Assembly: GCA_018883125.1 (NCBI GenBank) | Contig: VEQR01000016.1 | Span: forward strand, 1-49,827 | Origin: Candidatus Kapaibacterium sp. | Lineage (GTDB): Bacteria; Bacteroidota; Ignavibacteria; Kapaibacteriales; Kapaibacteriaceae | Reading direction: 5' to 3' | DNA: 49,827 nt | Shown: positions 1,621-42,073 of the stretch, in pieces | How positions within the stretch are numbered: the stretch's first letter is position 1 | How the letters are laid out: each line of letters starts with the position of its first letter | Program-made: the position numbers and the translations under genes | The notes under the pieces: generated by a model | Database searches by the model: none | What the model was told of the DNA's origin: nothing | What the model saw: only the letters and a program-made list of their open reading frames with translations

Positions 1621-2474
1621 TACCTCACCTTATACACCCGATGGAACAGTACGCTGTGCGGAAGTGTAAGGGCACTAAGGGCAACAAAGAGAGCTACCAT
1701 CATCGATGTGTTGGGCAGCAGTAAAGCGGCAAGACCAATGCCGGCATAGGAAACAAGGGAAAGGGGCAAAGCGGCACGGATCAGTTCGCCCCATGACCAT
1801 AGGACGCGTCCGCCGAGGTGGTGACGCAGGTCGTTCATGCTCGTATAGGCGTGGACGAACGTGAAGTACCAGGTGAACGCCAATAGCGAGTTCACGCTAA
1901 AGGCAAGGGCTACGATGATCGCGCTGCGGATCAGACGATAGCGGATGCCGGGATGCACAATCATTGATGGTAGTATGATCACGATCACAGCGGCAACATT
2001 GCGCCAGGAGTCGAGTGCTGTGAAAGTGGACAGGCTGAGGGGTTGACGAAGAAGCTCCTCGATAATCGACTTGACCGACGGATCTCGTGGGTCGACCATG
2101 AGAATCAGAACCGCAAGACCATACATCAATGCCCGTATCGTGTGAAGTCTGCCCACATTCGGCACGTCACAGTCGCCAAAGTGCCACGCGGAATTCAGGA
2201 GAAACAGCACAAGCATTATGTTGGGGGCAAACCACCAGACGGACAACACAAGCCCCAAGGCACCTATGTAGCGGAGCAAGTCGGCGTTGCGCCGGCCCCC
2301 TGATATCCCCATCATGTGATGGTCAACAGCACCGTGCGGAATTCCGAATAAGGCAATGGCCAATCCAAGAACAAGTGGAGAATCCGACAGGCCCGCTCCC
2401 TGAAACAGCAGTGCGAGCACTGCACTCACCACAGCGATCAGCGTCTGACGATGGCCCGTAGAAACGGTAGCCAT
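1617..2474 (-). CDS. blh: Brp/Blh-family beta-carotene 15,15'-dioxygenase (retinal synthesis)
   Basis: FGIPHGAVDHHMMG and TLPHSVLFHRVYK motifs, multi-pass membrane pattern, next to crtY and a rhodopsin gene. Start could be 2486 (MEVTMATV) or 2474 (MATV). Confidence 0.88.
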   Translation of the reverse strand: MATVSTGHRQTLIAVVSAVLALLFQGAGLSDSPLVLGLAIALFGIPHGAVDHHMMGISGGRRNADLLRYIGALGLVLSVWWFAPNIMLVLFLLNSAWHFGDCDVPNVGRLHTIRALMYGLAVLILMVDPRDPSVKSIIEELLRQPLSLSTFTALDSWRNVAAVIVIILPSMIVHPGIRYRLIRSAIIVALAFSVNSLLAFTWYFTFVHAYTSMNDLRHHLGGRVLWSWGELIRAALPLSLVSYAGIGLAALLLPNTSMMVALFVALSALTLPHSVLFHRVYKVRY

Positions 2475-3517
2475 GGTAACCTCCAAAATATCAGGATCTC
2501 TTCCTTCAGGTCTGTTTGCTCATCAAGAAACCGCAGGATACGTTCTATCGGATTTCGTTTGAAGAGCGTCCACAATATTCCTGGCACCTCGGCCGGTTCA
2601 TCGCGAATGATCCTCAGCAACAACCGATCATACCAGTCGAATCGAGCATGAGCTCGAGCAGGGGGCTTGAATTCACCCGTTCTCTGATAGTGCTGCATGA
2701 TCTTCTCGGCATCTCGCAGGCAACGGGCCACAGTGTACCCGGTTGTGGGCTTGGTGAGTCCGCCAGCCACTCCTATGGCGATCCATGACCGACCACGTTG
2801 GCGCAATGGTATCCGGTCGCACATGGCAATGGATCCTGTTTCGGTAGTGGAAATCCGGTAGTCGTTGATACCCATCACATCGCGGAGGTACGACGTAAGA
2901 CGCGCCTCGTAGTGATCTTTCTGCCATGTGGACTCAGAGAACACCGTACACTCAACCAATGCCTCTGTCGGTCCGTATGGAAGGACATAGACGAAGCACA
3001 CTCCGTCGGACTGGTCCACACGAAAGTCCATCATAGTGGCAACATCCGGTTCGAACATCGGCTCGTCGGTGAGAACCCTCCAGCCATGGAAGTGCTGTAG
3101 AAGGGAAATGCTAGCCGGACGCACATCTCGATCGTCATGTCGACTATCAAACGATACCGTGCTGGAAGCATCCGGATTGTTCACCTCGCCGATCTGTCTC
3201 TCCACATCAATCGTCGCGTCAACCAAAGCTCTGATGGAGGCAGCCGTGTATTGGCTGTATCGCATCCTGTCCATGCGTCTGACAATTGTTTCATCGCCGA
3301 ACCCGAAACGAAGTGTGGCCCACTGGGCAACTACGGCGTCGTGGATCAGGGAAGCAGGCTCTCCCCACACACAGAGCGTCCTGACGGGTACCTCATCAGT
3401 ACGATCGCGCATTAGCACATGAACATTCTCCTTGCCGAGCATTTCGCTTGCAACAAGGGAATATAGGTGGGCCCCAACGCCCCCTCCCATGAAGAACAAA
3501 GATGTCCGTTTTGCCAT
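2438..3517 (-). CDS. crtY: Lycopene beta-cyclase, CrtY family
   Basis: N-terminal nucleotide-binding motif (MAKRTSLFFMGGGVGAHLYSL), VRTLCVWGEP, GGLTKPTTGYTVARCLRDAEK, FDWYDRLLLRII; overlaps blh. Track ORF extends to 3562; Met at 3517 seems the better start. Confidence 0.82.
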   Translation of the reverse strand: MAKRTSLFFMGGGVGAHLYSLVASEMLGKENVHVLMRDRTDEVPVRTLCVWGEPASLIHDAVVAQWATLRFGFGDETIVRRMDRMRYSQYTAASIRALVDATIDVERQIGEVNNPDASSTVSFDSRHDDRDVRPASISLLQHFHGWRVLTDEPMFEPDVATMMDFRVDQSDGVCFVYVLPYGPTEALVECTVFSESTWQKDHYEARLTSYLRDVMGINDYRISTTETGSIAMCDRIPLRQRGRSWIAIGVAGGLTKPTTGYTVARCLRDAEKIMQHYQRTGEFKPPARAHARFDWYDRLLLRIIRDEPAEVPGILWTLFKRNPIERILRFLDEQTDLKEEILIFWRLPWLPFLRAIVRR

Positions 3518-3562
3518 CGGGAAGAAACATAGTCCACTGAAACCGAAATCGATTCGAAACAT

Positions 3563-3849: not shown

Positions 3850-4623
3850 ATGACCAAATCTCTACGCGTTGCCCTTTGGGCTGCGGTCCTATCATGCTTG
3901 GGTGCAAACACGGCCCTTGCTGCTAACGGTGTTCTGAATCCGGGCGACTATATCGGATTCACGTTCTTTACCGGGTACATGGCGATGTTCGCCGCCTCGG
4001 TATTCTTCTTCTTTGAACGCGGCCGTGTCGCCGATAAGTGGAAGACGTCTCTGCTGATCTCGGGCCTGATCACGATGATCGCTGCCGTGCACTACTTCTA
4101 TATGCGCGGTGTGTGGCTCGACACTGGTACGTCTCCGACGCAGTTCCGGTATATCGACTGGACGCTGACCGTTCCGCTGATGTGCGTTGAGTTCTACATG
4201 CTCCTCCGTCCAGCAGGCGCATCATCGGCTATGATGTGGCGTTTGATCGCCTCGTCCGTTCTGATGCTTGTTGCCGGTTATATGGGCGAAGCCGTGCAAC
4301 CACAGAGCAATGTCATGTGGGGCGTCATCTCCACGATCGGTTGGGCTGGAATCATCTATGAGATCTTCATGGGCGAAGGCAAGAAGGTAGCTGCTGCTTC
4401 CGGCAATGCCGTCATTCAGTCAGCCTTCAAGCAACTGAGTATGTTCGCTCTCATCGGTTGGGCGATCTATCCGATCGGTTACATGCTTCTGCCGGGCAAT
4501 CTGCTTTCAGGCATGGGCATCCCACCATCAAACATGGACCTGATCTACAACATCGGTGACGCCGTCAACAAGATCGGCTTCGGTCTGGTCGTGTACGCCA
4601 TGGCGATCAAGGACACCAAGTAA
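3850..4623 (+). CDS. Proton-pumping type-1 rhodopsin (proteorhodopsin/xanthorhodopsin-like)
   Basis: Helix C RYIDWTLTVPLMCVEFYML (Asp/Thr/Glu pump triad), VHYFYMRGVW, Schiff-base Lys in DAVNKIGFGLVVY. GAGGAG Shine-Dalgarno just upstream supports ATG 3850 over 3802. Confidence 0.97.
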   Translation: MTKSLRVALWAAVLSCLGANTALAANGVLNPGDYIGFTFFTGYMAMFAASVFFFFERGRVADKWKTSLLISGLITMIAAVHYFYMRGVWLDTGTSPTQFRYIDWTLTVPLMCVEFYMLLRPAGASSAMMWRLIASSVLMLVAGYMGEAVQPQSNVMWGVISTIGWAGIIYEIFMGEGKKVAAASGNAVIQSAFKQLSMFALIGWAIYPIGYMLLPGNLLSGMGIPPSNMDLIYNIGDAVNKIGFGLVVYAMAIKDTK

Positions 4624-4918: not shown

Positions 4919-4978
4919 CATATCGTACCTCCGTCATTCCGTCCTTCCGTAATTCAGTAATTCAGTAATTCAGTAACT
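4919..4978. repeat. 8-mer tandem tail (TAATTCAG-type) entering the 3' end of the FAD-oxidoreductase gene
   Basis: ccgtaattcagtaattcagtaattcagtaactc. Confidence 0.85.
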
Positions 4979-6087
4979 CTCTTCGCAATGCTACTGCTGA
5001 GAGCCACACCCATCCCGTTGCAGCCAAAGGCAACGATCACATGTGGACTCACACGATCGATGATCGGCTGCTTGGTTGGCGAAAAGGCCATCGTACCAGA
5101 CCAACGATGATCGATGCGAAGATCCGTGTGTGAGGGGGCGATGACATCTCGTAGGAGAGTTTCCAATGCCTCTTGAATCTGCTGCGACACATCATGCGAG
5201 GTCGTCTGCTCTGCGTTGAAGTCGAGGTTGCGGGCACCACCGAGTAGAATGCGATTTCCTACGGGACGGAAATAGACGTAGCCCTCATCAAAGTGATACG
5301 ATCCCGTTAGCGGCATCGATGGGACCGGCTCCGTTACGATGATCTGTCCGCGTGCCGGGATGATGGCTGAGGCAGCATGGTCATGAACGAGCTCCGGGAT
5401 CCATGCATTGGTTGCCACAACAACACTTCCGGCGCGAATGCAGACGTCCTCCGTGCCGACTCGTGCATAGACGCTCGCAGTGCCTGCCCCTTCATTGATC
5501 GACACAACATGAACACCCGTTCGAATCATCACGCCGCGGTGCTGAGCAATGCCCCAGAGAACATCAAGGAGTTTACCGGAGTCAAGTGTTCCTTCGACTG
5601 GACTCGACACAAGATGTTGAACGGAAGGGGCGAATCCGAATGGGGCAATCCACGCATCATGACGTTCAAACGTAGCCAGCCCCGTTACGGGTTGCAGCAG
5701 TTCGTTGATCTCATCTATTCGCTGTAGTGCCGGATGCTCGTCAAGGAAGATCTCATGTCCACCCTGGCGCGTAAAACCAACGTCGTGTCCCTCGCATGTA
5801 GAGAGCAGTCCTGCCAGCCCTTCACTCCGCATTTGGACGATCTCAACCGCACGATCGGGTCCGTGCAGATCAACATCCACGGCCACTTCGCTTACCGAGC
5901 CGATGCATGCAAAGCCTGCATTACGGGTTGAAGCGCCAGTTGGCATATATCCCCGTTCGAGCAGAAGCACTCTGTCGCGCGGACGTTGCGCCGCATGCGC
6001 TATGGCTGTCTGAACACCCACAAGTCCGGCACCAACGATGACCACGTCGGCCTCTAACCAGGTTTGAGCTTCCCAAAACGAGCGCAT
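4954..6087 (-). CDS. FAD-dependent oxidoreductase (DAO / glycine oxidase-like)
   Basis: ADVVIVGAGLVGVQTAIAHA Rossmann motif, STRNAGFACIGS, GARNLDFN, HRWSGTMAFSPTKQPIID, FGCNGMGVALSS. Track ORF begins at 6231; MRSFWEAQ at 6087 is a plausible start. Confidence 0.85.
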   Translation of the reverse strand: MRSFWEAQTWLEADVVIVGAGLVGVQTAIAHAAQRPRDRVLLLERGYMPTGASTRNAGFACIGSVSEVAVDVDLHGPDRAVEIVQMRSEGLAGLLSTCEGHDVGFTRQGGHEIFLDEHPALQRIDEINELLQPVTGLATFERHDAWIAPFGFAPSVQHLVSSPVEGTLDSGKLLDVLWGIAQHRGVMIRTGVHVVSINEGAGTASVYARVGTEDVCIRAGSVVVATNAWIPELVHDHAASAIIPARGQIIVTEPVPSMPLTGSYHFDEGYVYFRPVGNRILLGGARNLDFNAEQTTSHDVSQQIQEALETLLRDVIAPSHTDLRIDHRWSGTMAFSPTKQPIIDRVSPHVIVAFGCNGMGVALSSSIAKRVTELLNY

Positions 6088-6149
6088 CGACAAATCTACG
6101 GTGTAACCAGAGGCCCCTGTTGCGGTATCTTGTCTCGGTACAACCACGA

Positions 6150-6710
6150 ATGACGCCGTTTCCCATGCACGCCTTGATGACCGATGAAGAATTGTTTGCA
6201 CTCGTTCGCGATAAGAACGACGAGCAAGCATTTCGTTCGCTCTTCAAACGCTACGACAAACGGCTTTATGCCTATTGTCTGCGCGCCCTCGGTTCCCATG
6301 AGGAAGCACAGGATATGTTCCAGACAATATCGCTGACGGTCTACGACAAGCGGGCATCGTTCACCGATGGCTCGTTTGCTGCGTGGCTCTTTACCATCGC
6401 GCGCAACTTCTGTCTCAAGGGGCTTCGTCAGCGCAAGAACACCACGGAATACACGGAAGAGCTTCACTCCTATGAGGAGACTGAACGTCACAGTGGTGAC
6501 TTCATGCTCCGGGAAGCGCTTCACAAGGCCATTGCCGAACTTCCGGAGGAGTTTCGCGAGGCACTCGAAATGAAATACTTCGATGATCTTCCCTACGAAG
6601 ACATCGCTAAAACGCTCAGTATCACGGTCTCCCTGGCAAAGGTCCGTGTGTTCCGTGCAAAGAAACTCATCCAGCAATCTCTGTCCAGTATCATCAGTGA
6701 ACTGCAATGA
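6150..6710 (+). CDS. ECF-type sigma-70 family RNA polymerase sigma factor
   Basis: ELFALVRDKNDEQAFRSLFKRYDKRLYAYCLR...; AAWLFTIARNFCLKGLRQRK; region 4 LPEEFREALEMKYFDDLPYEDIAKTLSITVSLAKVRVFRAKKLI. Confidence 0.9.
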   Translation: MTPFPMHALMTDEELFALVRDKNDEQAFRSLFKRYDKRLYAYCLRALGSHEEAQDMFQTISLTVYDKRASFTDGSFAAWLFTIARNFCLKGLRQRKNTTEYTEELHSYEETERHSGDFMLREALHKAIAELPEEFREALEMKYFDDLPYEDIAKTLSITVSLAKVRVFRAKKLIQQSLSSIISELQ

Positions 6711-7567
6711 CGAATCAGGAACTTCTCGCGGGCTTCCTTGATCGATCTCTCAACGAAGATCAACTGCTCGAATTCGAACAGCGCAAACTAGACTCTCCCG
6801 AGTTCGCTCAGGAAGTGCGCGAAATGCTGACTGTAGAACACCTGCTTGCCGACTCTGCACCAAAGGTGCGTTTGCCGATCGAGTTTCTCGCAAAGGTCGA
6901 ATCCTCCGTGGCCGCTCAGATTATTGCGGGCGCTGCCACGGGCGGAATCCTTGGAACAATTGCCAAGTTCGGATGGGGATGGATAGCCGGTGGCACAACG
7001 GCTGCAGTTGTCGGAGGTACGGCACTCTATGTTGCGGCAACGCGCAGCGATGACGTGCAGCCTGATCCACGTCCGACCAAGATCATGTCGGCACCAACGA
7101 CTACACCAACCACTACGCCCCCTGTCATCGAACAGCCATCGGTTGCCGAACCGGCACCAACTCCTGCACCTGTTGTGGTGCGCGAAGTCAGCAAGGTTGA
7201 TGTCAGCCTTAAGGCAACTCCAACAAGCTCAGCAGTGGATCAGCTTCGCGCTGATTATGAAACCTGCTCTACAGCGAATGACCGCGTCCGCTGCGCACAG
7301 ATCGCTTTGCAAATCGGTCGGAAGCTGCGGCAGACGCAGCGCTCAAGTGAAGCCGAAACGTATCTCACCTCGGCTATTGCTCATGCACGCGCGGCGCGGC
7401 TGGCACAGTTTGAAGTTGATGCACTCGGCGAACTTGGACTCGTGATGGCCGAGCGCGGTGACGTGCAGCAGGCAGCATCATATTTTCAGAAGGCGATCGA
7501 CCGCGGACAAAGTGCGCGGATCGTGACGACTGCTTGGTCAACGGCGCTCGAGAACCTGAACCGATAG
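6707..7567 (+). CDS. Probable membrane-anchored anti-sigma factor with C-terminal TPR-like region
   Basis: 4-bp ATGA overlap with the sigma gene; acidic N-terminal helix region, one TM segment (FGWGWIAGGTTAAVVGGTALYVAA), Pro/Thr linker, TPR-like AETYLTSAIAHARAARLAQFEVDALGELGLVMAERGDVQQAASYFQKAI. Confidence 0.65.
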   Translation: MTNQELLAGFLDRSLNEDQLLEFEQRKLDSPEFAQEVREMLTVEHLLADSAPKVRLPIEFLAKVESSVAAQIIAGAATGGILGTIAKFGWGWIAGGTTAAVVGGTALYVAATRSDDVQPDPRPTKIMSAPTTTPTTTPPVIEQPSVAEPAPTPAPVVVREVSKVDVSLKATPTSSAVDQLRADYETCSTANDRVRCAQIALQIGRKLRQTQRSSEAETYLTSAIAHARAARLAQFEVDALGELGLVMAERGDVQQAASYFQKAIDRGQSARIVTTAWSTALENLNR

Positions 7568-9547
7568 CCGAACGCCACGCGCGTCGTATAGCGCTCGTTC
7601 CGGCGGATCTAGTCCACGCATTGTCCACTCGGCAAGTGGACGCACACCATCAGCCCCCTGCCGTATGGGTGATGACTGACGCGTTCCGCCATCATGTCCA
7701 AAGGTGAGCACTTCTGTTCTCTTTACCGGACGCGAAGCTGAGGCAAGTGGTAAGCGGGACGTAAGAGAGATCCGAAGCGGATCACTGTCGGTCTGTGCCT
7801 CATCAATATCATTCACATGCAGCGTCAGCACGATGGGCACTTTGAATGCCTCTTCTGCCTCGATGTCGTCGTTCATGTCCCAGGGTATCGAGCTCGGAAG
7901 CGAGCCACTGCCCTTGAATGTTCGTACGAGGACATCCCGCAGCTTGGCTTCAATCGTCCACGTTCGCACACCGGCCTCGCTGATAACGTCAGGCACGAGC
8001 TGAACGCGCGGCAGCTGCGTTTCGATTGTTGATACGGTGAACTCGATAGGAGCAAGAAGCTCCGGACTGGACTGTTCCAAGGAGACACTACCCGCCGGAA
8101 GTGTTCCGCGGTTTTCGGAACCAAGGACGTTCTGGATACGCGACTGGCTAATGCCGAAACGTGTCACGAGATATTCCCGTACCGCATCAATGCGTGCCAA
8201 TGCGATTTCTTTGGAACCGGCATCATCGGCACCGACAAGCGTACACGTGGTTGACGGTAGGCGTTTCATGCGAGAACCGATCACATTCAAGACCTGATAT
8301 TGCCAGTGACCGGACGACACACCGCTGATGGATGCTTCTTTCCATGAGCGTGCCTGCTGAGATGTGAGTGGCTGATACCGCGTCGGTATCTGAGAGGAGG
8401 AATTGTCGAATACAACAGCGGGAACAAAGCTGACGACTCGGCGAGACTCAACGCGCACAGCGGAGAGGCGCGCATCCTGCGTTACCTCTCCCTCGTCGTC
8501 CACAAAGCGAAGCTGAAGTGCGGCTCGCAAGACGGAAGGGGGCTTGGGTACCGCCATCCGATACGTTTCCTTGCGGCGTACCACCTTCTGTTCCTCGCCA
8601 CCGTCACGTTGCTCAACGATAGTGTCCACCGCAGTGTTCATCAGCATCGTCATCGTCTCATTGATACCACGCGTCAGTTCCACAAACGTGTCGCGCTCCA
8701 CGCGGATCGCTAGTGGCAAGGGGGCGTTTTGTTTCGGCAGCTCGGTGGGAATCTGTTTCGGTGGCTCTGGCGCATTGGGTTCGTCTGACCTCATCGTAAC
8801 ACGATAGCGCAGACCGATGCTGGCAGAAAATGAACGCATGGTGAACGCACCATCCTTCGTCACGGCGGCCAAGGCCTGAGTAAGGCCGATCCGAGGGACG
8901 AGAACCCACGTTCCCGACGAGCTCACCGGAAGCGTCCCCTCGGCGAACATAGTAACCATTGGTATGATAGACCGTCGATTAGGGACATCTCCCTTTGCGG
9001 TTATCTGCTCAAGACTTCCGTCAACGAATCGTATGCCGGCCGGATCACCGAACACCATCGTCTGCGTGTATCGCGATTCCGCAACACCATACAAGGGGAG
9101 TCCGGCTCCAACCGACAGCCATGTTGTGGGCTCGTATCGCACATACGGCATTGCTCCGAGAAGCGTCATCGAAGTCTGCAGATTATGACGCAGAGTGGCC
9201 GTGACCACCGAGCCCCCTTCCGTTGCGATGGGAGCTCGCTCCAATGCCTCGTAGCGCAGAACGGTCTGGTGCATGTCAACCCGCACACCAAGACGTAACT
9301 CTCCAAGCACCGGCAGGTCTGCACCCAAAGCCCCCTGCAGACGCGAACCACCCGACACGGGGTCGTAGCGAAGGTCTCCCGGAGACGCTATGCCGGGAAC
9401 ACTGCGAAAGAATGATGAAGGGGCTGATGACAGCGCACCAACAGATGCATCGGCATTCCATGACGCGTTCTTCTGCTGCGCACGAATATTCGTGCCAGCA
9501 GTCAGCAGTGCGGCACACATAAGGAGGTACGAGAGGTGAAGGATCAC
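7538..9547 (-). CDS. Outer-membrane/periplasmic protein with C-terminal OmpA-like segment
   Basis: Signal peptide (MILHLSYLLMCAALLTAGTNIRAQ), beta-barrel-like N-terminal half, TCTLVGADDAGSKEIALARIDAVREYLVTRFGISQSRIQNVLGSENRG. Confidence 0.6.
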   Translation of the reverse strand: MILHLSYLLMCAALLTAGTNIRAQQKNASWNADASVGALSSAPSSFFRSVPGIASPGDLRYDPVSGGSRLQGALGADLPVLGELRLGVRVDMHQTVLRYEALERAPIATEGGSVVTATLRHNLQTSMTLLGAMPYVRYEPTTWLSVGAGLPLYGVAESRYTQTMVFGDPAGIRFVDGSLEQITAKGDVPNRRSIIPMVTMFAEGTLPVSSSGTWVLVPRIGLTQALAAVTKDGAFTMRSFSASIGLRYRVTMRSDEPNAPEPPKQIPTELPKQNAPLPLAIRVERDTFVELTRGINETMTMLMNTAVDTIVEQRDGGEEQKVVRRKETYRMAVPKPPSVLRAALQLRFVDDEGEVTQDARLSAVRVESRRVVSFVPAVVFDNSSSQIPTRYQPLTSQQARSWKEASISGVSSGHWQYQVLNVIGSRMKRLPSTTCTLVGADDAGSKEIALARIDAVREYLVTRFGISQSRIQNVLGSENRGTLPAGSVSLEQSSPELLAPIEFTVSTIETQLPRVQLVPDVISEAGVRTWTIEAKLRDVLVRTFKGSGSLPSSIPWDMNDDIEAEEAFKVPIVLTLHVNDIDEAQTDSDPLRISLTSRLPLASASRPVKRTEVLTFGHDGGTRQSSPIRQGADGVRPLAEWTMRGLDPPERALYDARGVRLSVQVLERR

Positions 9548-28470: not shown

Positions 28471-31400
28471 TTAGCGGACAACAGAAACCGTGCTTGTTGT
28501 GGAGACACCGTTTACTGTAGCCTTAACGATATAGCGACCTTGGCTCATAGCTGCAGAGTTCATTGCAACACCATGCACGCCCGACGCCATATACTCATTG
28601 TTTACAAGTGTTGAAACCAGTTGACCTACAGCATCGTACACAGCTACCGTTACTGTACCAGCTTCAGGAACAACAACATTTACTGTTGCGCTCGATACAA
28701 CTGGATTAGGTGATACGCTCACGTTCAGTGCACCTACATTGTCCTGACCCATGAGGCGGATGTATGGTGTACGTGCATCAGTGATTGTGATCACATTCGG
28801 ACGTCCTGCAATCGCTGTTCCGATCACGGCACCGGAGATAGCATTCACAACATTGTATGTCACTGCAGGGTTGTTGATAGTAACCGACACTGGGAAGGTC
28901 ACACCCTGAAGTTGGATCGTTGGATTGACTTCGTCTTCGACACTGGTTTGCGTCGTGAAGCGAACATCAAAGATGTTGTGTGGAGGAACCGGTGGAAGTT
29001 CGAAGATTGACTTGTTGTCAACAATCCCTGCTGCAGCAACGAAGACATCAGCTTGATTGTTTGCTGCATCGGCAATCGTAACACGCGTCGAATTCGACTG
29101 AACTGCTTCACGAGCGACCATTGTGTTAACTGATGCCTTGGCTGCCATTCCGAGCTTCAGATAAGCTTGACCCGAGAGCTTGATCCAGTAACCGAGACCT
29201 GGTTCGATCTCTGTAACGGCCTGATAACCACGGTTGGTAACATATCCATACACATCACCGACGCGCGTTGGAAGTGCACCAGTTCCGTAAGGAATAACCG
29301 ACAGGTTTTCGATTGATGTTGGATACGAAAGCGAACCAATTGTGTTCCAACCGTCAAACAGACGTGTAGGGAAATACGCATCGTCAATCAGACGGATACG
29401 TGAACCAGCAATCGTCTTGTCGACATCATCGGAATACTTGACGAAGTAACCAACGCCTGGATTCAGCTCTGTTTCGTTTGTCTGATACGTGTTCTGCGAG
29501 AAGCGAACAGGGATGTTCAGAGCATTCTTGAAGATGTTCTTCCAATAAGCTGACGATGGGTTTACTGGAACCGAGAGGAGATTCCAGCCCTTGTTGATTA
29601 CCGGGAAGCGAGCAACCTTCGGCAGAGTGTACTCAATCACAAACGACTTGATGTCGGCATCGCGGATCGTGTATGATTGACGTGATCCACCGATCACGGT
29701 ACCCGAACGCATGTTTACGTTGAAACGTGAACCGTTCAGAGTATCGCGGATGAAAAGCTCAGATCCAGGTGAGAACTCGTCTGTGTTCCATGCAACTACG
29801 ATAGGGTAGTTGCGGTCTCCACCTGCACTGAAGCGGCATGTGTAGATGAGTGTCGTGTCAGAATAAATCGAGCGGATATCACGTGACGCAGACCTTACAC
29901 GCTGAGGTGTAGCAGCCCAAAGATCGCCAAGGCCGTTAGGAACCAGAATATTGCCCTCACGATCCTTTGGATAGAAACGGGCTCCGAATGATGCTTGGTT
30001 CAAATCTGAAGAATATACAGTCTCTCCAAAGAGAATGTCACATCCGTCAGTTGCACGATTGCCAACACCAAAGGTCACATACGTGATTTCATTTGGTGTG
30101 TTCGAATTACGAACCTGCAATGTGATGCCCCGACCAAGGAACTCCTGTGAGCGCTTCCAGTTTTCGTTTTCGTCAAAAACATTTGGCTCGTATGGAGTAC
30201 GGAAGTAGATAAATGTGACCTTAAGACGAACAGGTGAAACATCGAGTGAGTTCGACTTGAAAGTCAAGTAACCAACATACGTTCCTGTTACTTCTTGCTC
30301 ATCACCGCTTGGTAGTTCGTTCGGATCGCAAATGATGCGAAGGTTCAAGTCGCGCTGACCAACAGTAGCATTGCCTTGTGGGTCCGCACCCACCGTACTT
30401 CCGAGGATACCCTTGTCCATGTATGGAACGTATCCTTCACGGACTGGATTCGGGAATGGATTGAGTTCTGTTTGACCGCCACCACCCTTGGTGAACGACT
30501 TAAACTTAAGCCACTTTGAATCAGATTGGACCATGATGTCGTAAGCGCGTGAACCCGTCACTGCGTTGATGACGTCTACATCACGAGTACCAATACCATT
30601 TGCTTGGTCATCGTACGGTGTGCCATAATCTACGGTCACCGGATTCACAACGTACCACTGTGATCCTGTTGAACCAGCCACGGAGTCAGCAATACGGTCA
30701 GATGGGTTCGAGACGTTTGTGAATGAAAGGCGTGGAGCAACGTCTGTTACTTCCAGCCAGATCATGCCAGGGCGCGATGGACGAAGTGGATCACGGATCT
30801 GTTCCTGTCCAAGAGCGTCGATATAGTAGTTGTCGATACCTCCAAGACCGGCGAATGTGCCCGGTGCCGGATCCCCTGGGAAAGGAAGTTCCTTGCCAAC
30901 GGCAAAGTCATTGTAGAACAATGTGTCGTTGGTGAGAATGATCGGAGAGCGTGCGCTTTCTGGATCAAGAGCGGTGTTTGCTACCACGCGGAAACGTAGG
31001 TAAACCATTTCCACATACGGACGCTGATCGCACGGTTGCGACACGTCACCCGTCTGAGGCAGTGGCTTAGCTGACACAGCTGTGATAAATGCGCGCTTTC
31101 CGCGGCGACGGTTTTGCACTGGCGCGTTGATGACGCTTTGATATGTCTCATCGCGTGTTACTTCGAGGTTGAATTCGAAATCTTTGGCGAGGCAAGACAC
31201 TGGCGTCATCTGAGGTCCACGAAGTGGGCCGTTCTTTTCAATACCCATCAGCTCAAGTGCTGTGCTGTCGTACTGAACTTTGAACTTGAAGCTGTAGATA
31301 GGGAACGTCTTGTATCCTGGCGTTGAGCGCCAGCAATTCTTGATATAAACCGGTACCAGCAGCGTCCGATCTCCATTAGGACCACGGCTTGATGACCAAA

Positions 31401-31587
31401 TGCGGCCATCAGGATAAACATTCTTGTTCCAGCCAGCGCCTTCGCCGGTCAGGGTGAGCGTCGGCAGCTCGGGCTTATTCGTTCCTTGTGCTTGAAGCAC
31501 AACGGAACCAAAGCCGATCAATGCTGCAAGGAGGGCAACGGCACCGAGCTTAGTGCCACCGCTCCACAGAGCATAACGACGATTCAT
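28471..31587 (-). CDS. Large T9SS-exported surface protein; candidate cohesin-like N-terminal region and C-terminal sorting domain
   Basis: Signal-like N-terminus MNRRYALWSGGTKLGAVALLAALIGFGSVVLQAQ; C-terminus VSVSPNPVVSSATVNVVVPEAGTVTVAVYDAVGQLVSTL...QGRYIVKATVNGVSTTSTVSVVR. Confidence 0.8.
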   Translation of the reverse strand: MNRRYALWSGGTKLGAVALLAALIGFGSVVLQAQGTNKPELPTLTLTGEGAGWNKNVYPDGRIWSSSRGPNGDRTLLVPVYIKNCWRSTPGYKTFPIYSFKFKVQYDSTALELMGIEKNGPLRGPQMTPVSCLAKDFEFNLEVTRDETYQSVINAPVQNRRRGKRAFITAVSAKPLPQTGDVSQPCDQRPYVEMVYLRFRVVANTALDPESARSPIILTNDTLFYNDFAVGKELPFPGDPAPGTFAGLGGIDNYYIDALGQEQIRDPLRPSRPGMIWLEVTDVAPRLSFTNVSNPSDRIADSVAGSTGSQWYVVNPVTVDYGTPYDDQANGIGTRDVDVINAVTGSRAYDIMVQSDSKWLKFKSFTKGGGGQTELNPFPNPVREGYVPYMDKGILGSTVGADPQGNATVGQRDLNLRIICDPNELPSGDEQEVTGTYVGYLTFKSNSLDVSPVRLKVTFIYFRTPYEPNVFDENENWKRSQEFLGRGITLQVRNSNTPNEITYVTFGVGNRATDGCDILFGETVYSSDLNQASFGARFYPKDREGNILVPNGLGDLWAATPQRVRSASRDIRSIYSDTTLIYTCRFSAGGDRNYPIVVAWNTDEFSPGSELFIRDTLNGSRFNVNMRSGTVIGGSRQSYTIRDADIKSFVIEYTLPKVARFPVINKGWNLLSVPVNPSSAYWKNIFKNALNIPVRFSQNTYQTNETELNPGVGYFVKYSDDVDKTIAGSRIRLIDDAYFPTRLFDGWNTIGSLSYPTSIENLSVIPYGTGALPTRVGDVYGYVTNRGYQAVTEIEPGLGYWIKLSGQAYLKLGMAAKASVNTMVAREAVQSNSTRVTIADAANNQADVFVAAAGIVDNKSIFELPPVPPHNIFDVRFTTQTSVEDEVNPTIQLQGVTFPVSVTINNPAVTYNVVNAISGAVIGTAIAGRPNVITITDARTPYIRLMGQDNVGALNVSVSPNPVVSSATVNVVVPEAGTVTVAVYDAVGQLVSTLVNNEYMASGVHGVAMNSAAMSQGRYIVKATVNGVSTTSTVSVVR

Positions 31588-31622
31588 AATACACTCCTCA
31601 GATGAGTTGATCAGTTGATTTT

Positions 31623-32789
31623 TCATTTCACAATCGTTTTTCGTTTCCAGCCACCACCACACGTCATCATTGCAAAATGAAGTCCGTGCGATAGAACCAT
31701 GGTGGACAATACCACCGATTCGTTGCCATGTTTTGAAGTCGCTAAAACTCTATTGCCATACAGGTCGTAAAGCTCCAGCTCTTTCATCCCATGATGAAGA
31801 CACTTGCCAATAATTAGACCTTCCTTGGTCTCTATCGTACAAGAACCGTCATCAGGTGATGATTCAATTCCCACAACCGATTTCTCCATCACTATATCAA
31901 CTGTATCGAGAAGACCCGGAATACTACATGAACACGTGTCCCTATTCCGAACTGTTGCAATCAACTTTGCCTTTCCCTCCGAACCACCATCCCAACGCTT
32001 TAGCGTAGTACGAAATACGATTGGTTCGTTGACTTTCGTTGCACTATCAATGCTGTAATAGACCGATACAGAATTAGAACTCGGAAAACCCACACTATCT
32101 ATGTCGCAATTGTCACAGCTAGAGCCTACATAAGTCAGTGTATTCGAATCGTCTTGTATCTGAAAACCAAGTTGACCTTTCACGTCATCTGAGTTACCTG
32201 ATCGGTTAATAGTCGATACATAGGTCCGTTGAATTTCGCCGACTAGAAACGAATCACGTTGAACATTAAACGTACATCCGAGATTAGGTACGAAACGCCG
32301 ATTCCAGACTGGCTGTATTTCATCTAAAACGTTTACCGTGTATCTCTTTTTGAACTCTGTGTTGAAGTCTGGTGGATAGGGAACAGATAACTCCCCAACC
32401 TCCGTACACACGCCTAAAAAGTCTCCTGATACGGCAACCAAAGGCTGATTCCCGGATACAGACCTTGCTACATTGAATCCGAAGATTCTCATTTCGCCAG
32501 GAACCACAGTGTTCATTGTTGGACCATTAGACATCTGAGCAGAAAGAGTACCCTCTTTCAGCACGTCTGTTGGACGAATAATGCTTTTGTTGAAACCGAT
32601 TGTGATGTCAAAGGACTCTAGGCTATCAGCAAACCTGATATTGCCTAACGATACCGCTAAAAGCCATCGGCGCTTATCGGAACAAAGATCCACCGACCGT
32701 AGCGATTGAACCCGAAGAGTGTCCTGTGCTGTCACCGTGCTGACCACCATTGAAGTGATCAGCACGGCTACACACACAATACTTTTCAA
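31623..32789 (-). CDS. Secreted protein, candidate cohesin-like fold, divergent T9SS-type C-terminus; probable TTG start
   Basis: (TTG)KSIVCVAVLITSMVVSTVTAQ signal peptide at 32789 preceded by AGGAAAG; C-terminus MKELELYDLYGNRVLATSKHGNESVVLSTMVLSHGLHFAMM. Track ORF start 32903 overlaps the upstream gene. Confidence 0.6.
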   Translation of the reverse strand: MKSIVCVAVLITSMVVSTVTAQDTLRVQSLRSVDLCSDKRRWLLAVSLGNIRFADSLESFDITIGFNKSIIRPTDVLKEGTLSAQMSNGPTMNTVVPGEMRIFGFNVARSVSGNQPLVAVSGDFLGVCTEVGELSVPYPPDFNTEFKKRYTVNVLDEIQPVWNRRFVPNLGCTFNVQRDSFLVGEIQRTYVSTINRSGNSDDVKGQLGFQIQDDSNTLTYVGSSCDNCDIDSVGFPSSNSVSVYYSIDSATKVNEPIVFRTTLKRWDGGSEGKAKLIATVRNRDTCSCSIPGLLDTVDIVMEKSVVGIESSPDDGSCTIETKEGLIIGKCLHHGMKELELYDLYGNRVLATSKHGNESVVLSTMVLSHGLHFAMMTCGGGWKRKTIVK

Positions 32790-34940: not shown

Positions 34941-37900
34941 TTAGCGGATCACAACGACTTGTTGAGTCGCTGTATTGGTTCCATCAGAGATGCGGACAGT
35001 GTATGAACCGCTCGGCAGAGATACACCGTTCGACATACCGTTCCATTCAATCGAATTCTTGCCAGCTGCAAAGACATCATCAGCGATGGTTGCAACACGG
35101 TTACCGACCGAATTGAACACTTCGACGGTGACCTTAGACGTTGTTGGAACGTTGAAGGAGATTGTCGAAGAAGATGTGAATGGATTTGGCGAGATACGAT
35201 TGATACCGAAGACCGTCACGTCATCTTCTTGTACCGGGGACGTGAAGTCATAGACGATAACGAAACCTTCGATCGATGTTTGCGTGATCACGAGTGTATC
35301 GCAATCCGGACCACCGCGCTTAATCACACCTGGAACTCCCTTACCGGTACCCGTCTTCATGTTGTAATCGAAGAGCTGACCATTTGACTGATCGTCACGG
35401 ATATAGTAGCTACCAGGATTATTAGCATCCTTCGCAGGGATATCCGCGCGGCACCAGCTGATCTTGACCGGGTAGTAGTTTGAGCTCTGGCCTGTTTCTC
35501 CACCAGCTTGGAAGCGAGCATTGTAAGTCGACTGACCAGCTGCATTGGAGAACGGATGAATGTTGCGGATGATACCGTTCCGTGTTGGGACTGTCCAACG
35601 AGCATCGAAGACATCGATGTACGGGACAGGTGGAAGTTCGAATTCGCAATAGTTGGAATCTAGCTTACCGAACGATGTCTGCTCATCACCACGTGTAGCG
35701 ATCGTTGTACCCCCAACACCGAATGAGAGCACTTGGAAAGCTCCATAGTTGTTCTCGACACGCACATCTGCAGAGAAACGAGTTGCGTCGGAAACAGACA
35801 CAGAGTAAACGAGCGTGTCCTTAGCACCCTGGCGGTCTGTTACGATAACAACAATGCGGATACGACCGTCAACGATGTTACCTGTAAGGTTTGTCGTTGA
35901 AATAGCAACGCGTTGTGTATCGGCGATTGGACTTGCAAGCTTGCTTGGTGTGAACGTCCATGAACCTGCTGGCTCTGTCACTTCAAATGTGAGTTCCTCG
36001 TTTCCAGCTTGCTTGCGAGCAAGGTCAACGTCAGTCACACGGAGCGTATCACTGTAAGGCTTTCCAGCTTCGACACAGCGGATAATAGGTGACTGAAGAA
36101 GAACTGGATTGTGGTTCTTAGCACGAATAGTCAAGTTGTATGTCTTGATGTCGCGAAGTCCACCGGCGTCCGTCACAAGAACTGTCACTTGAACAGTTGT
36201 GTCAGCATAAGGAAGATCTGTCACACGCGGTGTTCCATAAAGCAGGCCCGACGTTGGATTGATACGGAGCCACTTCGGTGTGGTCTTGCGAGTATCATCA
36301 AGCTTGATCGTACCCGCCTCAGAGAAGTACGGGTCAATTTCAACACTGTCGCGCGTATCGTCGGCATAGATCAACTCGTAGCCGATGACCTGACCGAAGT
36401 TAGGATCATAGACCTTGATGCGACGTGCACTGTCGATGAGCTGAGTGTTGTAGTCCTCGTCTTCGATCGCATCTGGAAGATTTGCATCCAGAAGGTTTGG
36501 CTGGTAGTTCACAAACAGACGACGCGTCAGTGTGTTGACTCCACCGTGGCCATCGTTTACGATAACAGACATGATTGTGTCCGTGTTGCGATCATCGTTA
36601 AATGGACGTCCTGGGTCATAGTCGTTGACCGGCTGAAGCAGTTCGTTAGCAACATTACGTGGAATACGGATTTCAATTTGTCCGCGTGACGTAAAGTCTT
36701 CTGCGAATGGATCGGCTGTGCCGGCTGACTCATAACGACGCATGAAGCGTGATGCCATCCAGCTCGGACGTGCTTGGATAATGCTTTCAAGAGTTGTGTC
36801 ACCAGGGTTCTGACGGATGGATGTCGATAGGAATCCGTACGACGTCTTACCGTAGCGATAGTCCCACGCACCGAGGCGCTTAACAACATCACGGCTTTGA
36901 TCAGCAGCAGCCATGTCTTCGAATTCGTCGTCCGTGTTAATGTCAGCACGGAAGCGAAGCGAATCGGTCACATTTGCGACAAAGTGAATGTTGAGTGTGT
37001 CAGCTTGGCTGCGTGACGGATTGTTGTACACCTCATCAAGAATGTTGTTTGGTGCATTCTGCGGAGCAGGTGTAAAACGACGAGCAACACGACTAGTTGT
37101 ATTCAACATGCGAAGCGTATCGAGATACGTTCCGGTTGCCTTGTTGTATACTGCTGGATCAGTCGTTGTTGGATCGAGAACGATAGTGGTATCGCCCTTC
37201 CACATGTTCTGGAATGTTACAGCATTCGTACCTGTAGCACGATAATTCCAGAGGAAGCGTGGCATTGAGTCAACGACATGAATGCGGAATGTGTAGGAGA
37301 CAGAGTCCATCCAACCAAAGTTCACCGTGTCCTGTTGAAGGAAACGAGCGTTGGTGTTTGATGGATTACGCTGATCGAGCGGCAGTGCATTGTTGTCATA
37401 CTCCTGTGCATGGAAGTATGATGGGTAGAGGTAGATCCAGCGGCTGATTTGATCCTCTGACCATCCACTCTTGCGCAGTGAATCGACCATCTCAACGCTT
37501 GGCGGGAAGTTCTTCGCAACTACCTCAACTAGCTCACCACCAGGAACGATGTATGGGTTGATCGGACGACCGCGGAAGAAGCGGTAACCGCGTGCACTCC
37601 AACGAACGTTGTTTGCCGTTGCACCGGCACGCACGAGAGTGTCGCGAAGCCAGTATTGAAGACCCGAGTTACCTGTCTTGATCTGCCAGAAGTAGGAGAG
37701 TTCTGCGTTGAAGTTCGCGTCTTGAACAACGCGTGGATCGTAGAACTTGTTGATGTCAACTGCTGTGATTGAGAAAATCGAGTCACGCTCGGTAAGATCC
37801 ATTCCTGGGATCGGCTGGTTGAGAGCATCTGCCGGATAGCTAGCAGGATCGCTAAACCAACTTCCACGTCCAGCACCACGTGACGATTGACCGGCTGTGA

Positions 37901-40900
37901 TTGGCGTGTAAAGACGATTCTCCGTGACGAAAACGCGATTACGCATTTCTGGATGGAGAAGTGGCGACTTTCCAAGTGTATCAGCAGCACCGGTAAACAC
38001 TGGTGGAACCGTGTTGTTGCCAATGGCGAATGTAAGAGCACCATTGAGAGCATTTACGACACCGTCTTTCCAAAGAGCTGTACGCGAAATGACAGTGATC
38101 GGGTCTCCATTTGAAACTGGAAGAGCACGATAGCGCTCACCACCATAGTACGTTTCCTTGCCGCCAGCCGAACCAAGAGAGTTCGAGACTGGAAGCGTAG
38201 GACGGTTACCGAGGCGGAAGTTCGTACCACCAAGCTCACCTAGTGTTGATGAAGCCTCCCAGCGGCGACCTGCAAGTGCTGCTGAATCTTCAGCAATAGC
38301 ATTGCGAACGATCTTCGACAGGAGAGTTGCACCCGTACCATATGTGGCGAGGCCTTCGTACGCGCGACGGATGTTTGGATCACCACCGTTTGTCGAGTCT
38401 GGCACGAAGTCTACACGAGCACGGAAGATCGTGTCTGTATTCGTGCGCTGAGCCATGTTGATACGGATGTAATCGCCTGTACGCTCATTGATCACGAAGA
38501 ATACTGTCTCGTTAATTGAACGAGCATCATTGTTCGCGATTTCGGCTGTACCGTTGTAATCAGCACGTGCTTCGAGGAACAATGGGTAACCAATTGGATG
38601 ATCACCAACAAATTCCGTTTGTACCGCAGCAATGTCTGCGAACTTGTCAGCATCGTTTGGATTACGCGTCATACGCTTAACGTACTTGTTAAACGAAGGC
38701 ATAAGCGGATCGGCGTAGAGACGGAGAGTCGGCGGAATACCAACGGCGAAGTCTTCAATTGGAGACATGCGACGATTGGAGTAATCTGCTGTCTTGATGT
38801 CTGTTCCCTTATCGAAGATGTCGTATACGCGACCTTCCATAAGAAGAGTATCAGGGATCTGCCAAGTTGGAACTGCTGTGTAAGAGTAGCGCCATGCAGA
38901 TTCAAATGGACCCTGTTCAGTTGGATTCGATGTTGAGTTGCGGACAAAACGCATGTGCGTCTTACCGTTGCCAGCAATAAAGAATGTCTCCTGCGTACGT
39001 GCAAATGATGAACCTGCAGTCAAAGGAAGGATTGTGTTAACGTTAGCTTCTGTGCGGCCCCAATAGTTACCGCGGAGTGTGTCAACACCACCAAAACCGA
39101 TACCAGTCGTTCCAGCGAGAACACCCTTCGTGTCTTGTGCATCTGGAAGACGAACAATGAAGCGAGCGTCATTGTCGTAGATGGAGTTTGCAGCCGTACT
39201 GAATGTGTTCCATGGGAGTGGACCGGTTACTTCTCCGAAGAGAACCGCACCAGCAAGATCACTCGATGCCGGATTTTCGTTGCTAGCTGCGAGATATGGT
39301 CCCGAAATTGTGTCGTTCTGACGACCAATATTTGAAGTTGCCTTGTTGCCTGTTACCAAACAGCGAGCAAAATTCAACTTGAGATCGTAATTGTCTGAAT
39401 ACATAGCAGCACCACTGTGTGCCATGTTGTTTTGGAAACGAACACGATCAAAAGCGAAGGTGTCTACGCGAACTCGCACGCTATCGAGAATGTACACTGC
39501 ACCACCAAGACCAGTACCGTTTTCGCGGAGTGTTGTGCCGGGGTGTGTTACGCGGATATCGCCGCGCTGTGTTGTACCCGAACCTTGACGAGCAGCATTC
39601 GGATATGCTTCGTTTTCATAGAAACGCGTGAGCATACGCTCATCTGCACGAGGGTTAGCGGCTGCGAATGTGAAGACATCGTTGCGCGGCGCATACGAAA
39701 CTGCCATCGCATTTGCATCGAATGTTACATCATCGATGTCTGTGATCATGTAGCGCTTACGTGTTACCGTATCCGGTGTCACGATAGCCACAGCTCCACC
39801 GTTACCATTCCAAACCTTGTTTGCGCGGAACTCTGTTCCCTTCACAAGGTTGAGATCAGCATTGATAACATACAGACCACCACCACCACGAACTTCGTTG
39901 GCAATGTTCGGTGTGCCTGTTGTTGGAACCTGACCAACACGGTTGTTCACAAAGTGTGAGCGGACAAAACGAAGTCCACGCTCAACGACGGGAAGATTCT
40001 GTGGAATTTGAACTGCAATAGCACCACCAGCGAAGTTCGCCGTGTTGTTATTGAATTCTACACCGTAGTTCGTTCCGTAGATCCAAAGTGGTCCGGATGT
40101 TCCACCAGATCCGTAAACATACATGTTGCGCTCGGTGTAGATAGCACCGCCGTCAACTGTTGCCTTGTTATCACGGAATTTGATGTTGAAACCGTAGTTG
40201 CGTGCTTCAATTACGCCATCACTACCACCGATCCATGGTGAAAGTGCGCGCGACACTGAATTACGCTCAACGCAGATGGCGCCACCACGAGCCGACTCGT
40301 TTCCGATGAAGTGCGTTGGTGGGTTGTTGTCGAGGTTGCCACGAACCTGGATTGCAAGCGCTGTATTCGCCGTGTAGATGGCTCCTCCCTTGGAGAAGTT
40401 CGAAACGGAATTCGCGCTCGATGATGACAACGTTGTGATGAATGGCGTCACCGTCTTGTTAGACGTATAACGACCGGCAAACACTACACCAGTATTATCG
40501 CCAACATACACTGCACCACCGCGTGCACCTGAAGTGATCTGGTTGCCAACTGGTGTTGCTGATTGGCGGTTCTCAGCGTAGTTACCGTTGAATTCAATTG
40601 TGTCTTTGCCTTGGAAATCGTTGATACCGATACCAACAGTCATCGGTGTACGACCTGAGATATATACAGCACCACCAAACGACTCATTACGTTGTGAGCG
40701 GGTTGTGGTTCCAAATGTCGTTGCTGCTCGTGAAGAAACATCTGTAACGATGCGAACAGCACCGATACGAATCGTATCTACGTCTGCAAGGAGTGTGTAA
40801 TTGCCCGTAAAACGCGACTGGCGGATACGACCAAGGTACAGTGCAAGACGAGCATCATCCAGAGATTGGCGATCGGAGTCGGTCAGCGTTTCAGCTCCAG

Positions 40901-41981
40901 CTTCCGCAACATTATCCGTGATGCGCAAACCTGTGTTGATCGGTGCAGCTGTCGTCTGATCCGTCATAAACGGATTCGTCGTTGCTGGATACGTTGGCAG
41001 GGCTGCGATCGTACCAGGAGCTACCGTTGGGTAAAGCTGCAGGTTTGATCCAGCAAATGCGTCAACCGGTGCCTGGAGAACTTGAAGAGCTCCGCCACGG
41101 AAACGCGCCATGTTGTTGCGGAAGTTACAACCAACGATCCACGTGCGTGACGAGAACGTTGTGATGGCACCACCGCAACCGTTTGTCTGACTCAAAAGCG
41201 TTTGGTTGGCTGACTCAGCTTGTGGAGCCGTGAATGCCTGACCGCTGTTATTGGTGAGATAGACCGGACGGTTGTCTACCGTTGTATCCTTACGGAAGTT
41301 GACGAAGTCAACATCGCGGAAGAATGCCGCGCGAGCGCCCGGAAGCACAACGATATGTCCCCACTCACGTGAGAAGCTGTTCACACGATCAGCAGTAAAT
41401 GTGATGCGCGCAGGCGTCACATTAACAGTGCGGCCAGACGGACGGAACCACGGATTCAGACGAATCGCTGAAACCACCGCGCCAAGATCGAGCCGTGCGG
41501 CACGATACATGATCGCCTTGGCTGGCGTGAGGTTCTGGAGATTGGCGTTCGCACCCAGGTTCACACTGAAAATCAGGCTGTTCTTCGCTGAATTGATCGT
41601 CGGCTCGTTGTCGATCGTCGATGTGACGACGCCAGCTGCACCGTAATAATTCAGGTCATCATAGCCGATGTACGGCGGAACCAATGGATTCACTGCGGTA
41701 GGGTTGTACGTCGCAGACGCACGACCATCAGCAATGATGCGACCACCGGTCGAGTCCACCAGCCGACCATTCGGCAAGAACTCAACCCGTGTTCCGGGCT
41801 CGATTACGAGCGTACCACCAATTGTGTACGTGCCACTGATCCGATAGATCGTGTCACGAACAAAAATGCGCACGTTCCCGGGGGGAAGACTACCGCGTAC
41901 CTCAACGAATTGCGCATGCGCTACGTTGAAAACCGCGGTTAACGCAAGCAGCAAGCTGCTCAGACGAAACCAACGTTGCAT
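34941..41981 (-). CDS. Giant (~2,350 aa) T9SS-exported protein: Pmp-like parallel beta-helix, cadherin/Ig-like repeats, C-terminal sorting domain
   Basis: Signal peptide MQRWFRLSSLLLALTAVFNVAHAQ; repeated GGAV/IY plus FxxN motifs (GGAVYVGDN, GGAIYTAN, GGGLYVIN); LPDAIEDEDYNTQL...KWLRINPTSGLLYGTPRVTDLPYADTTVQVTVLVTDAGGL; C-terminus ISPNPFTSSSTISFNVPTTSKVTVEVFNSVGNRVATI. Confidence 0.85.
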   Translation of the reverse strand: MQRWFRLSSLLLALTAVFNVAHAQFVEVRGSLPPGNVRIFVRDTIYRISGTYTIGGTLVIEPGTRVEFLPNGRLVDSTGGRIIADGRASATYNPTAVNPLVPPYIGYDDLNYYGAAGVVTSTIDNEPTINSAKNSLIFSVNLGANANLQNLTPAKAIMYRAARLDLGAVVSAIRLNPWFRPSGRTVNVTPARITFTADRVNSFSREWGHIVVLPGARAAFFRDVDFVNFRKDTTVDNRPVYLTNNSGQAFTAPQAESANQTLLSQTNGCGGAITTFSSRTWIVGCNFRNNMARFRGGALQVLQAPVDAFAGSNLQLYPTVAPGTIAALPTYPATTNPFMTDQTTAAPINTGLRITDNVAEAGAETLTDSDRQSLDDARLALYLGRIRQSRFTGNYTLLADVDTIRIGAVRIVTDVSSRAATTFGTTTRSQRNESFGGAVYISGRTPMTVGIGINDFQGKDTIEFNGNYAENRQSATPVGNQITSGARGGAVYVGDNTGVVFAGRYTSNKTVTPFITTLSSSSANSVSNFSKGGAIYTANTALAIQVRGNLDNNPPTHFIGNESARGGAICVERNSVSRALSPWIGGSDGVIEARNYGFNIKFRDNKATVDGGAIYTERNMYVYGSGGTSGPLWIYGTNYGVEFNNNTANFAGGAIAVQIPQNLPVVERGLRFVRSHFVNNRVGQVPTTGTPNIANEVRGGGGLYVINADLNLVKGTEFRANKVWNGNGGAVAIVTPDTVTRKRYMITDIDDVTFDANAMAVSYAPRNDVFTFAAANPRADERMLTRFYENEAYPNAARQGSGTTQRGDIRVTHPGTTLRENGTGLGGAVYILDSVRVRVDTFAFDRVRFQNNMAHSGAAMYSDNYDLKLNFARCLVTGNKATSNIGRQNDTISGPYLAASNENPASSDLAGAVLFGEVTGPLPWNTFSTAANSIYDNDARFIVRLPDAQDTKGVLAGTTGIGFGGVDTLRGNYWGRTEANVNTILPLTAGSSFARTQETFFIAGNGKTHMRFVRNSTSNPTEQGPFESAWRYSYTAVPTWQIPDTLLMEGRVYDIFDKGTDIKTADYSNRRMSPIEDFAVGIPPTLRLYADPLMPSFNKYVKRMTRNPNDADKFADIAAVQTEFVGDHPIGYPLFLEARADYNGTAEIANNDARSINETVFFVINERTGDYIRINMAQRTNTDTIFRARVDFVPDSTNGGDPNIRRAYEGLATYGTGATLLSKIVRNAIAEDSAALAGRRWEASSTLGELGGTNFRLGNRPTLPVSNSLGSAGGKETYYGGERYRALPVSNGDPITVISRTALWKDGVVNALNGALTFAIGNNTVPPVFTGAADTLGKSPLLHPEMRNRVFVTENRLYTPITAGQSSRGAGRGSWFSDPASYPADALNQPIPGMDLTERDSIFSITAVDINKFYDPRVVQDANFNAELSYFWQIKTGNSGLQYWLRDTLVRAGATANNVRWSARGYRFFRGRPINPYIVPGGELVEVVAKNFPPSVEMVDSLRKSGWSEDQISRWIYLYPSYFHAQEYDNNALPLDQRNPSNTNARFLQQDTVNFGWMDSVSYTFRIHVVDSMPRFLWNYRATGTNAVTFQNMWKGDTTIVLDPTTTDPAVYNKATGTYLDTLRMLNTTSRVARRFTPAPQNAPNNILDEVYNNPSRSQADTLNIHFVANVTDSLRFRADINTDDEFEDMAAADQSRDVVKRLGAWDYRYGKTSYGFLSTSIRQNPGDTTLESIIQARPSWMASRFMRRYESAGTADPFAEDFTSRGQIEIRIPRNVANELLQPVNDYDPGRPFNDDRNTDTIMSVIVNDGHGGVNTLTRRLFVNYQPNLLDANLPDAIEDEDYNTQLIDSARRIKVYDPNFGQVIGYELIYADDTRDSVEIDPYFSEAGTIKLDDTRKTTPKWLRINPTSGLLYGTPRVTDLPYADTTVQVTVLVTDAGGLRDIKTYNLTIRAKNHNPVLLQSPIIRCVEAGKPYSDTLRVTDVDLARKQAGNEELTFEVTEPAGSWTFTPSKLASPIADTQRVAISTTNLTGNIVDGRIRIVVIVTDRQGAKDTLVYSVSVSDATRFSADVRVENNYGAFQVLSFGVGGTTIATRGDEQTSFGKLDSNYCEFELPPVPYIDVFDARWTVPTRNGIIRNIHPFSNAAGQSTYNARFQAGGETGQSSNYYPVKISWCRADIPAKDANNPGSYYIRDDQSNGQLFDYNMKTGTGKGVPGVIKRGGPDCDTLVITQTSIEGFVIVYDFTSPVQEDDVTVFGINRISPNPFTSSSTISFNVPTTSKVTVEVFNSVGNRVATIADDVFAAGKNSIEWNGMSNGVSLPSGSYTVRISDGTNTATQQVVVIR

Positions 41982-42073
41982 ACAACCTCCAGTTGTAAAA
42001 ACTTTATTCTTTAGCATTCTTTTCACGTGTTCAGGGTCAGTCATGTGGAAAATTGGCAAAATGCCTCGTTTTG

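Follow-up and report, generated by a model that had tools for sequence, protein, structure and literature searches.

The locus described here raises the question of whether a rhodopsin encoded beside enzymes for making retinal could also carry a carotenoid antenna, and which carotenoid that antenna would be. The gene lies in a 49,827-nucleotide stretch of a Candidatus Kapaibacterium genome (hereafter the window), where the frame at 3850-4623 (+) is intact on translation and encodes a microbial rhodopsin of 257 aa plus stop (coding part 3850-4620; Pfam PF01036, 1.8e-41) with a signal-like segment at its N-terminus. We aligned it with MAFFT to xanthorhodopsin (XR, 3ddl), Kin4B8 (7ytb), GR (6nwd), psXR, TR, NM-R1 (9jov), BPR (4knf), Med12 PR (4jq6), bacteriorhodopsin (BR), and 80 relatives; the reference sequences were taken from the PDB alignments given by sequence search, except that of BR. 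In this alignment, the DTE pump motif is formed by Asp103 (4156), Thr107 (4168), and Glu114 (4189), the Schiff-base lysine is Lys241 (4570), and the spectral-tuning position is occupied by Met111 (4180), all at the positions that a preliminary description had given them. Green absorption is commonly read from a Leu or Met at this tuning site (PMC4831467). With these residues in register, the earlier reading as a green-type proton pump holds up, and the protein would be expected to pump protons and to absorb green light.

Phylogenetically, the window rhodopsin groups with Bacteroidota proteorhodopsins (PRs) and NM-R1, apart from XR, GR, Kin4B8, and TR; the branch separating PRs from XRs has an SH-aLRT of 91, just below the starred support level. 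PRs are also its closest sequences in the PDB. An AF2 model built without retinal from a 45-sequence alignment (mean pLDDT 85.7) finds its best PDB match in 9jou (TMt 0.94, rmsd 1.4, 52% identity), a cryo-EM structure of NM-R1 with zeaxanthin bound. NM-R1 (9jou/9jov) is a light-driven proton pump from Nonlabens marinus. PRs head the structural matches with identities of 40-52%, whereas XR types reach 26-29%. Membership in the xanthorhodopsin family could be argued from the glycine and the helix E motif W-G-x-x-S-T common to both groups, but the tree and the structure search speak against it, and we regard it as extremely improbable. Judged from its sequence, the protein is a Bacteroidota-type (PR-clade) proteorhodopsin, and its nearest loci belong to Kapaibacterium and Ignavibacteria MAGs, whose rhodopsins are 76-90% identical to it.

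Two further rhodopsins were observed during this survey. Another genus of the same family carries an XR-type rhodopsin (L126; genome G010, C21:29400-30113) that is 36% identical to the window's, is sister to SrXR in the tree, and has the fenestration glycine; both rhodopsin clades are thus represented within this one family. The second, at L010:2027-2710, is a PR of the Bacteroidota type with 71% identity to the window protein. Its contig, 3.4 kb long, was assigned to a Bacteriovoracaceae (Bdellovibrionota) bin, which reflects either gene transfer or misbinning.

The residue that first suggested an antenna is Gly158 (codon GGC, 4321-4323, +). The alignment did not move it elsewhere: it occupies the column of XR Gly156 and BR Trp138, as initially proposed by eye, and of Kin4B8 Gly153, and both it and the pump residues line up with their counterparts in every carotenoid-binding rhodopsin of solved structure. 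The accompanying claim that ordinary PRs have a bulky residue at this position stands for proteobacterial-type PRs, as illustrated by Phe in BPR and Trp in Med12 blue PR, but fails for the Bacteroidota type, where glycine is the norm (PMC13043013). It is present in 80 of the 80 nearest relatives (one-per-species GTDB genomes, 57-90% identity), so it is not an exceptional mark of this protein, and a 2026 paper reports the diagnostic Gly156-type glycine for every Bacteroidota proteorhodopsin that it covers (PMC13043013). The fenestration glycine of Bacteroidota-type PRs is thus already published, and the Kapaibacterium protein joins a known kind. Because glycine is the rule in the clade, Gly158 alone adds little. 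In relatives, the glycine is necessary, as the loss of carotenoid binding in the G178W variant of GR shows (PMC9151804), but it need not be sufficient.

This invariance, which holds in the clade whatever the crtW state of the host, suits a reading in which the protein is a retinal-only pump: Gly158 would be inherited, no carotenoid would be bound in the cell, and the host carotenoids would serve only as retinal precursor and for photoprotection. A glycine kept irrespective of crtW indeed tells little about this particular protein. However, a residue that leaves a hole has been retained although a bulky one stabilizes GR (G178W; PMC9151804), which suggests that the glycine is kept for use, and the nearest solved relative, NM-R1, holds zeaxanthin. 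Weighing these points, we consider a retinal-only pump unlikely.

We instead favor, as a likely explanation, that the protein, a PR of the Bacteroidota type, uses light to move protons outward, is supplied with retinal through Blh and CrtY, and has an opening at Gly158 that is able to take a carotenoid ring. The adjacent CrtY would form the rings of beta-carotene, the adjacent Blh would convert it to retinal, and the PR would then pump protons outward. As XR, Kin4B8, and NM-R1 do, the protein would have a gap in its side next to the ring of retinal, left by Gly158, and one carotenoid ring fitting this gap could either pass light energy to retinal or accelerate the photocycle. The sequence, its alignment, its clade, and the host genes are observed; we infer the open pocket, the carotenoid binding, and the step from glycine to antenna; the capability is plausible because the closest solved relative, 9jou, is carotenoid-bound.

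The enzymes invoked for retinal formation adjoin the rhodopsin gene on the minus strand and are divergent from it. Both had been named in the preliminary description and are confirmed by Pfam and NCBIfam: a CrtY-type lycopene cyclase of 374 aa (2438-3562) and, overlapping the 3' end of crtY, the beta-carotene 15,15'-dioxygenase Blh (1617-2471; TIGR03753 above cut-off). No second PF05834 match exists in the assembly; with crtY as its sole lycopene-cyclase match, all beta-rings, whether destined for retinal or for an antenna, would go through it. We paired seven Kapaibacterial loci (L002-L008) with genomes by contig positions and identities. The crtY-blh and rhodopsin arrangement is kept in L003, L004, and L008, and no crtY or blh was recognized within the flank examined in L005-L007. 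After the rhodopsin gene come a DAO-type FAD oxidoreductase (4954-6231, -) and a sigma-70-family factor (6138-6710, +), homologues of which adjoin the rhodopsin in 7/7 of these loci. Elsewhere, the window contains an ORF of 2372 aa whose C-terminus is a sorting tail of the Por secretion type (34941-42059, -) and two ORFs with no Pfam match (1063 aa, 28471-31662, -; 669 aa, 7538-9547, -).

Clues to the pigment come from the pocket floor at the end of helix F, Tyr211-Met212-Leu-Leu-Pro215-Gly216-Asn217 (4480-4500, +), which includes the equivalents of Kin4B8 204/205/208/209 and was compared with Table 2 of PMC12308411. In a proposed split by two floor residues, 3-hydroxy binders have polar pairs (Ser-Tyr, Thr-Asp, Thr-Glu) and 4-keto binders have Met-Ala or Met-Leu (PMC12308411). 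The window rhodopsin carries the non-polar pair Pro215-Gly216 and so lacks the polar residues of the 3-hydroxy-xanthophyll type; the pair is non-polar like the 4-keto type, yet it is not the Met-Ala or Met-Leu of XR and GR. It is unlike every carotenoid-binding rhodopsin in that table, and it is the majority floor state in this PR clade. Pro-Gly also lacks hydrogen-bonding residues, a point in favor of the retinal-only reading, given that S208A in Kin4B8 brought zeaxanthin binding down to 2% (PMC12308411).

Kin4B8 (7ytb/8i2z; zeaxanthin/lutein), a member of the XR clade, has Gly153, Thr157, and Tyr204 conserved here, the latter two as Thr162 and Tyr211, but its Ser208-Tyr209, which hold the 3-hydroxy ring, are replaced by Pro-Gly. 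Xanthorhodopsin of Salinibacter ruber (salinixanthin), which binds a 4-keto ring (PMC12308411), belongs to the other clade at about 28% identity and has its Gly156, Thr160, Tyr207, and Met208 conserved here, with a non-polar floor in both. The tyrosine near the carotenoid ring (XR 207, Kin4B8 204) is also found in BPR and Med12 PR. Zeaxanthin-bound NM-R1 resembles the window protein in clade, fold, DTE motif, tuning Met, and fenestration glycine, and differs, beyond its 52% identity, in having a Thr-Pro-Gly-Trp floor (Pro-Gly-Asn-Leu here) and a helix E Gly in place of Thr162. Compared by pocket residues alone, KR1 of Dokdonia eikasta, a flavobacterial PR that binds 3-hydroxylated xanthophylls, shares the PR family and the Tyr and Met at Kin4B8 204/205; its floor is polar, Thr-Asp, and it did not bind canthaxanthin (PMC12308411).

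The carotenoid pathway of the host, from which the earlier description would draw the pigment, holds up, with crtY, crtI, crtW-like, and crtB-like genes in the genome; of the proposed crtZ/crtW-type genes, the ketolase was found and crtZ was not. The CrtW-like 4-ketolase is encoded on contig C19 (G000:C19:4593-5315, -) and scores 192 bits to CrtW vs 40 to CrtR, below the curated cut-off of 350. Since the gene occurs in 9/11 genomes of the genus in the conserved company of ybeY, contamination of this bin (4.07%) is an unlikely source. A CrtI-family desaturase (623 bits) is accompanied by a second, CrtD-like desaturase, and the CrtB-like synthase is labeled tentatively because its best NCBIfam score, to HpnD, is under the cut-off. 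No CrtZ or CrtR was recognized among the Pfam PF04116 and PF00487 matches of the host genome scored with NCBIfam. Zeaxanthin via a host CrtZ was rejected on these grounds: PF04116 has three matches, all unlike CrtZ, of which two hit OlsE, a model for ornithine-lipid hydroxylases (116-118 bits, below cut-off), and the third, with no NCBIfam match, is by eye a fatty-acid 2-hydroxylase. Among the remaining PF00487 proteins, the scores indicate fatty-acid desaturases or nothing specific, and a CrtZ-motif scan of the rhodopsin flanks gave one match only, which is irrelevant. A myxol- or salinixanthin-like route was likewise set aside, as the host genome has no match to CruF-type PF04240; a CrtC search, which matched none of the control genomes, carried no information on this point. 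The single host P450 matched no carotenoid-specific model. As separate observations, ybeY and a conserved ORF of 461 aa overlap or lie next to the crtW-like gene throughout the family, including rhodopsin-less genomes (L095:4157-5315 and relatives L106-L117), and near-identical gene copies occur on separate contigs of the bin (L087/L088 on G000:C141 and C45; L102/L103 on C104 and C11), consistent with strain mixing, given the estimated contamination, or with recent duplication.

The non-polar floor and a host with a CrtW-like enzyme and no recognized CrtZ or CrtR both point to a 4-keto ring instead of a zeaxanthin-type one, and the genome thus hints at a keto-carotenoid as the pigment, although unproven. 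In its specific form, this reading holds that host CrtW supplies the antenna as a 4-keto-carotenoid (echinenone, canthaxanthin, or a keto monocyclic), and that the protein selects keto pigments, as do XR and GR, and not 3-hydroxy ones, as do Kin4B8 and KR1; Met212 is shared with XR. Across 58 genomes whose rhodopsin belongs to this clade, many of them incomplete MAGs, the association is strong in counts: a CrtW match was found in 0/14 genomes with a polar floor residue and in 28/44 with a Pro-Gly floor, and Asn217, which adjoins the floor, occurs in 27/28 crtW-positive vs 3/30 crtW-negative genomes, a motif picked after looking. On the tree, however, the floor/crtW association amounts to 2-3 independent contrasts (best sign-test p, 0.5), and non-pocket columns such as 131 associate with crtW as strongly; we therefore treat it as a lead and reject it as proof of co-evolution. 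Other points also weigh against keto selectivity, namely the failure of the PR-clade member KR1 to take canthaxanthin, the sub-threshold CrtW score, the presence of crtW in relatives without rhodopsin, the prevalence of Pro-Gly in the clade, and a hydroxylase that the host may have and that escaped recognition. Keto selectivity is possible in our view, though on the unlikely side. Its extension to the whole group, by which a Pro-Gly-Asn floor (in PRs of Kapaibacteria, Cytophagales, and a few others) goes with 4-keto antennas from host CrtW, a polar or Gly-Trp floor in sister PRs goes with 3-hydroxy antennas, and the pigment can be read from floor and ketolase, seems to us quite unlikely.

In the literature collection that we searched, no paper paired Kapabacteria or Kapaibacter with rhodopsin. 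What is fresh lies in a narrower form of the preferred reading of a pump with an opening for a carotenoid ring, namely the prediction that its partner would be a keto-carotenoid, 4-keto rather than zeaxanthin-type. A host that apparently makes keto-carotenoids, within a clade in which KR1, the member tested, does not take canthaxanthin, offers a direct test of pigment choice, and if a carotenoid does bind, antenna-equipped rhodopsin phototrophy would extend to the Kapaibacteria.
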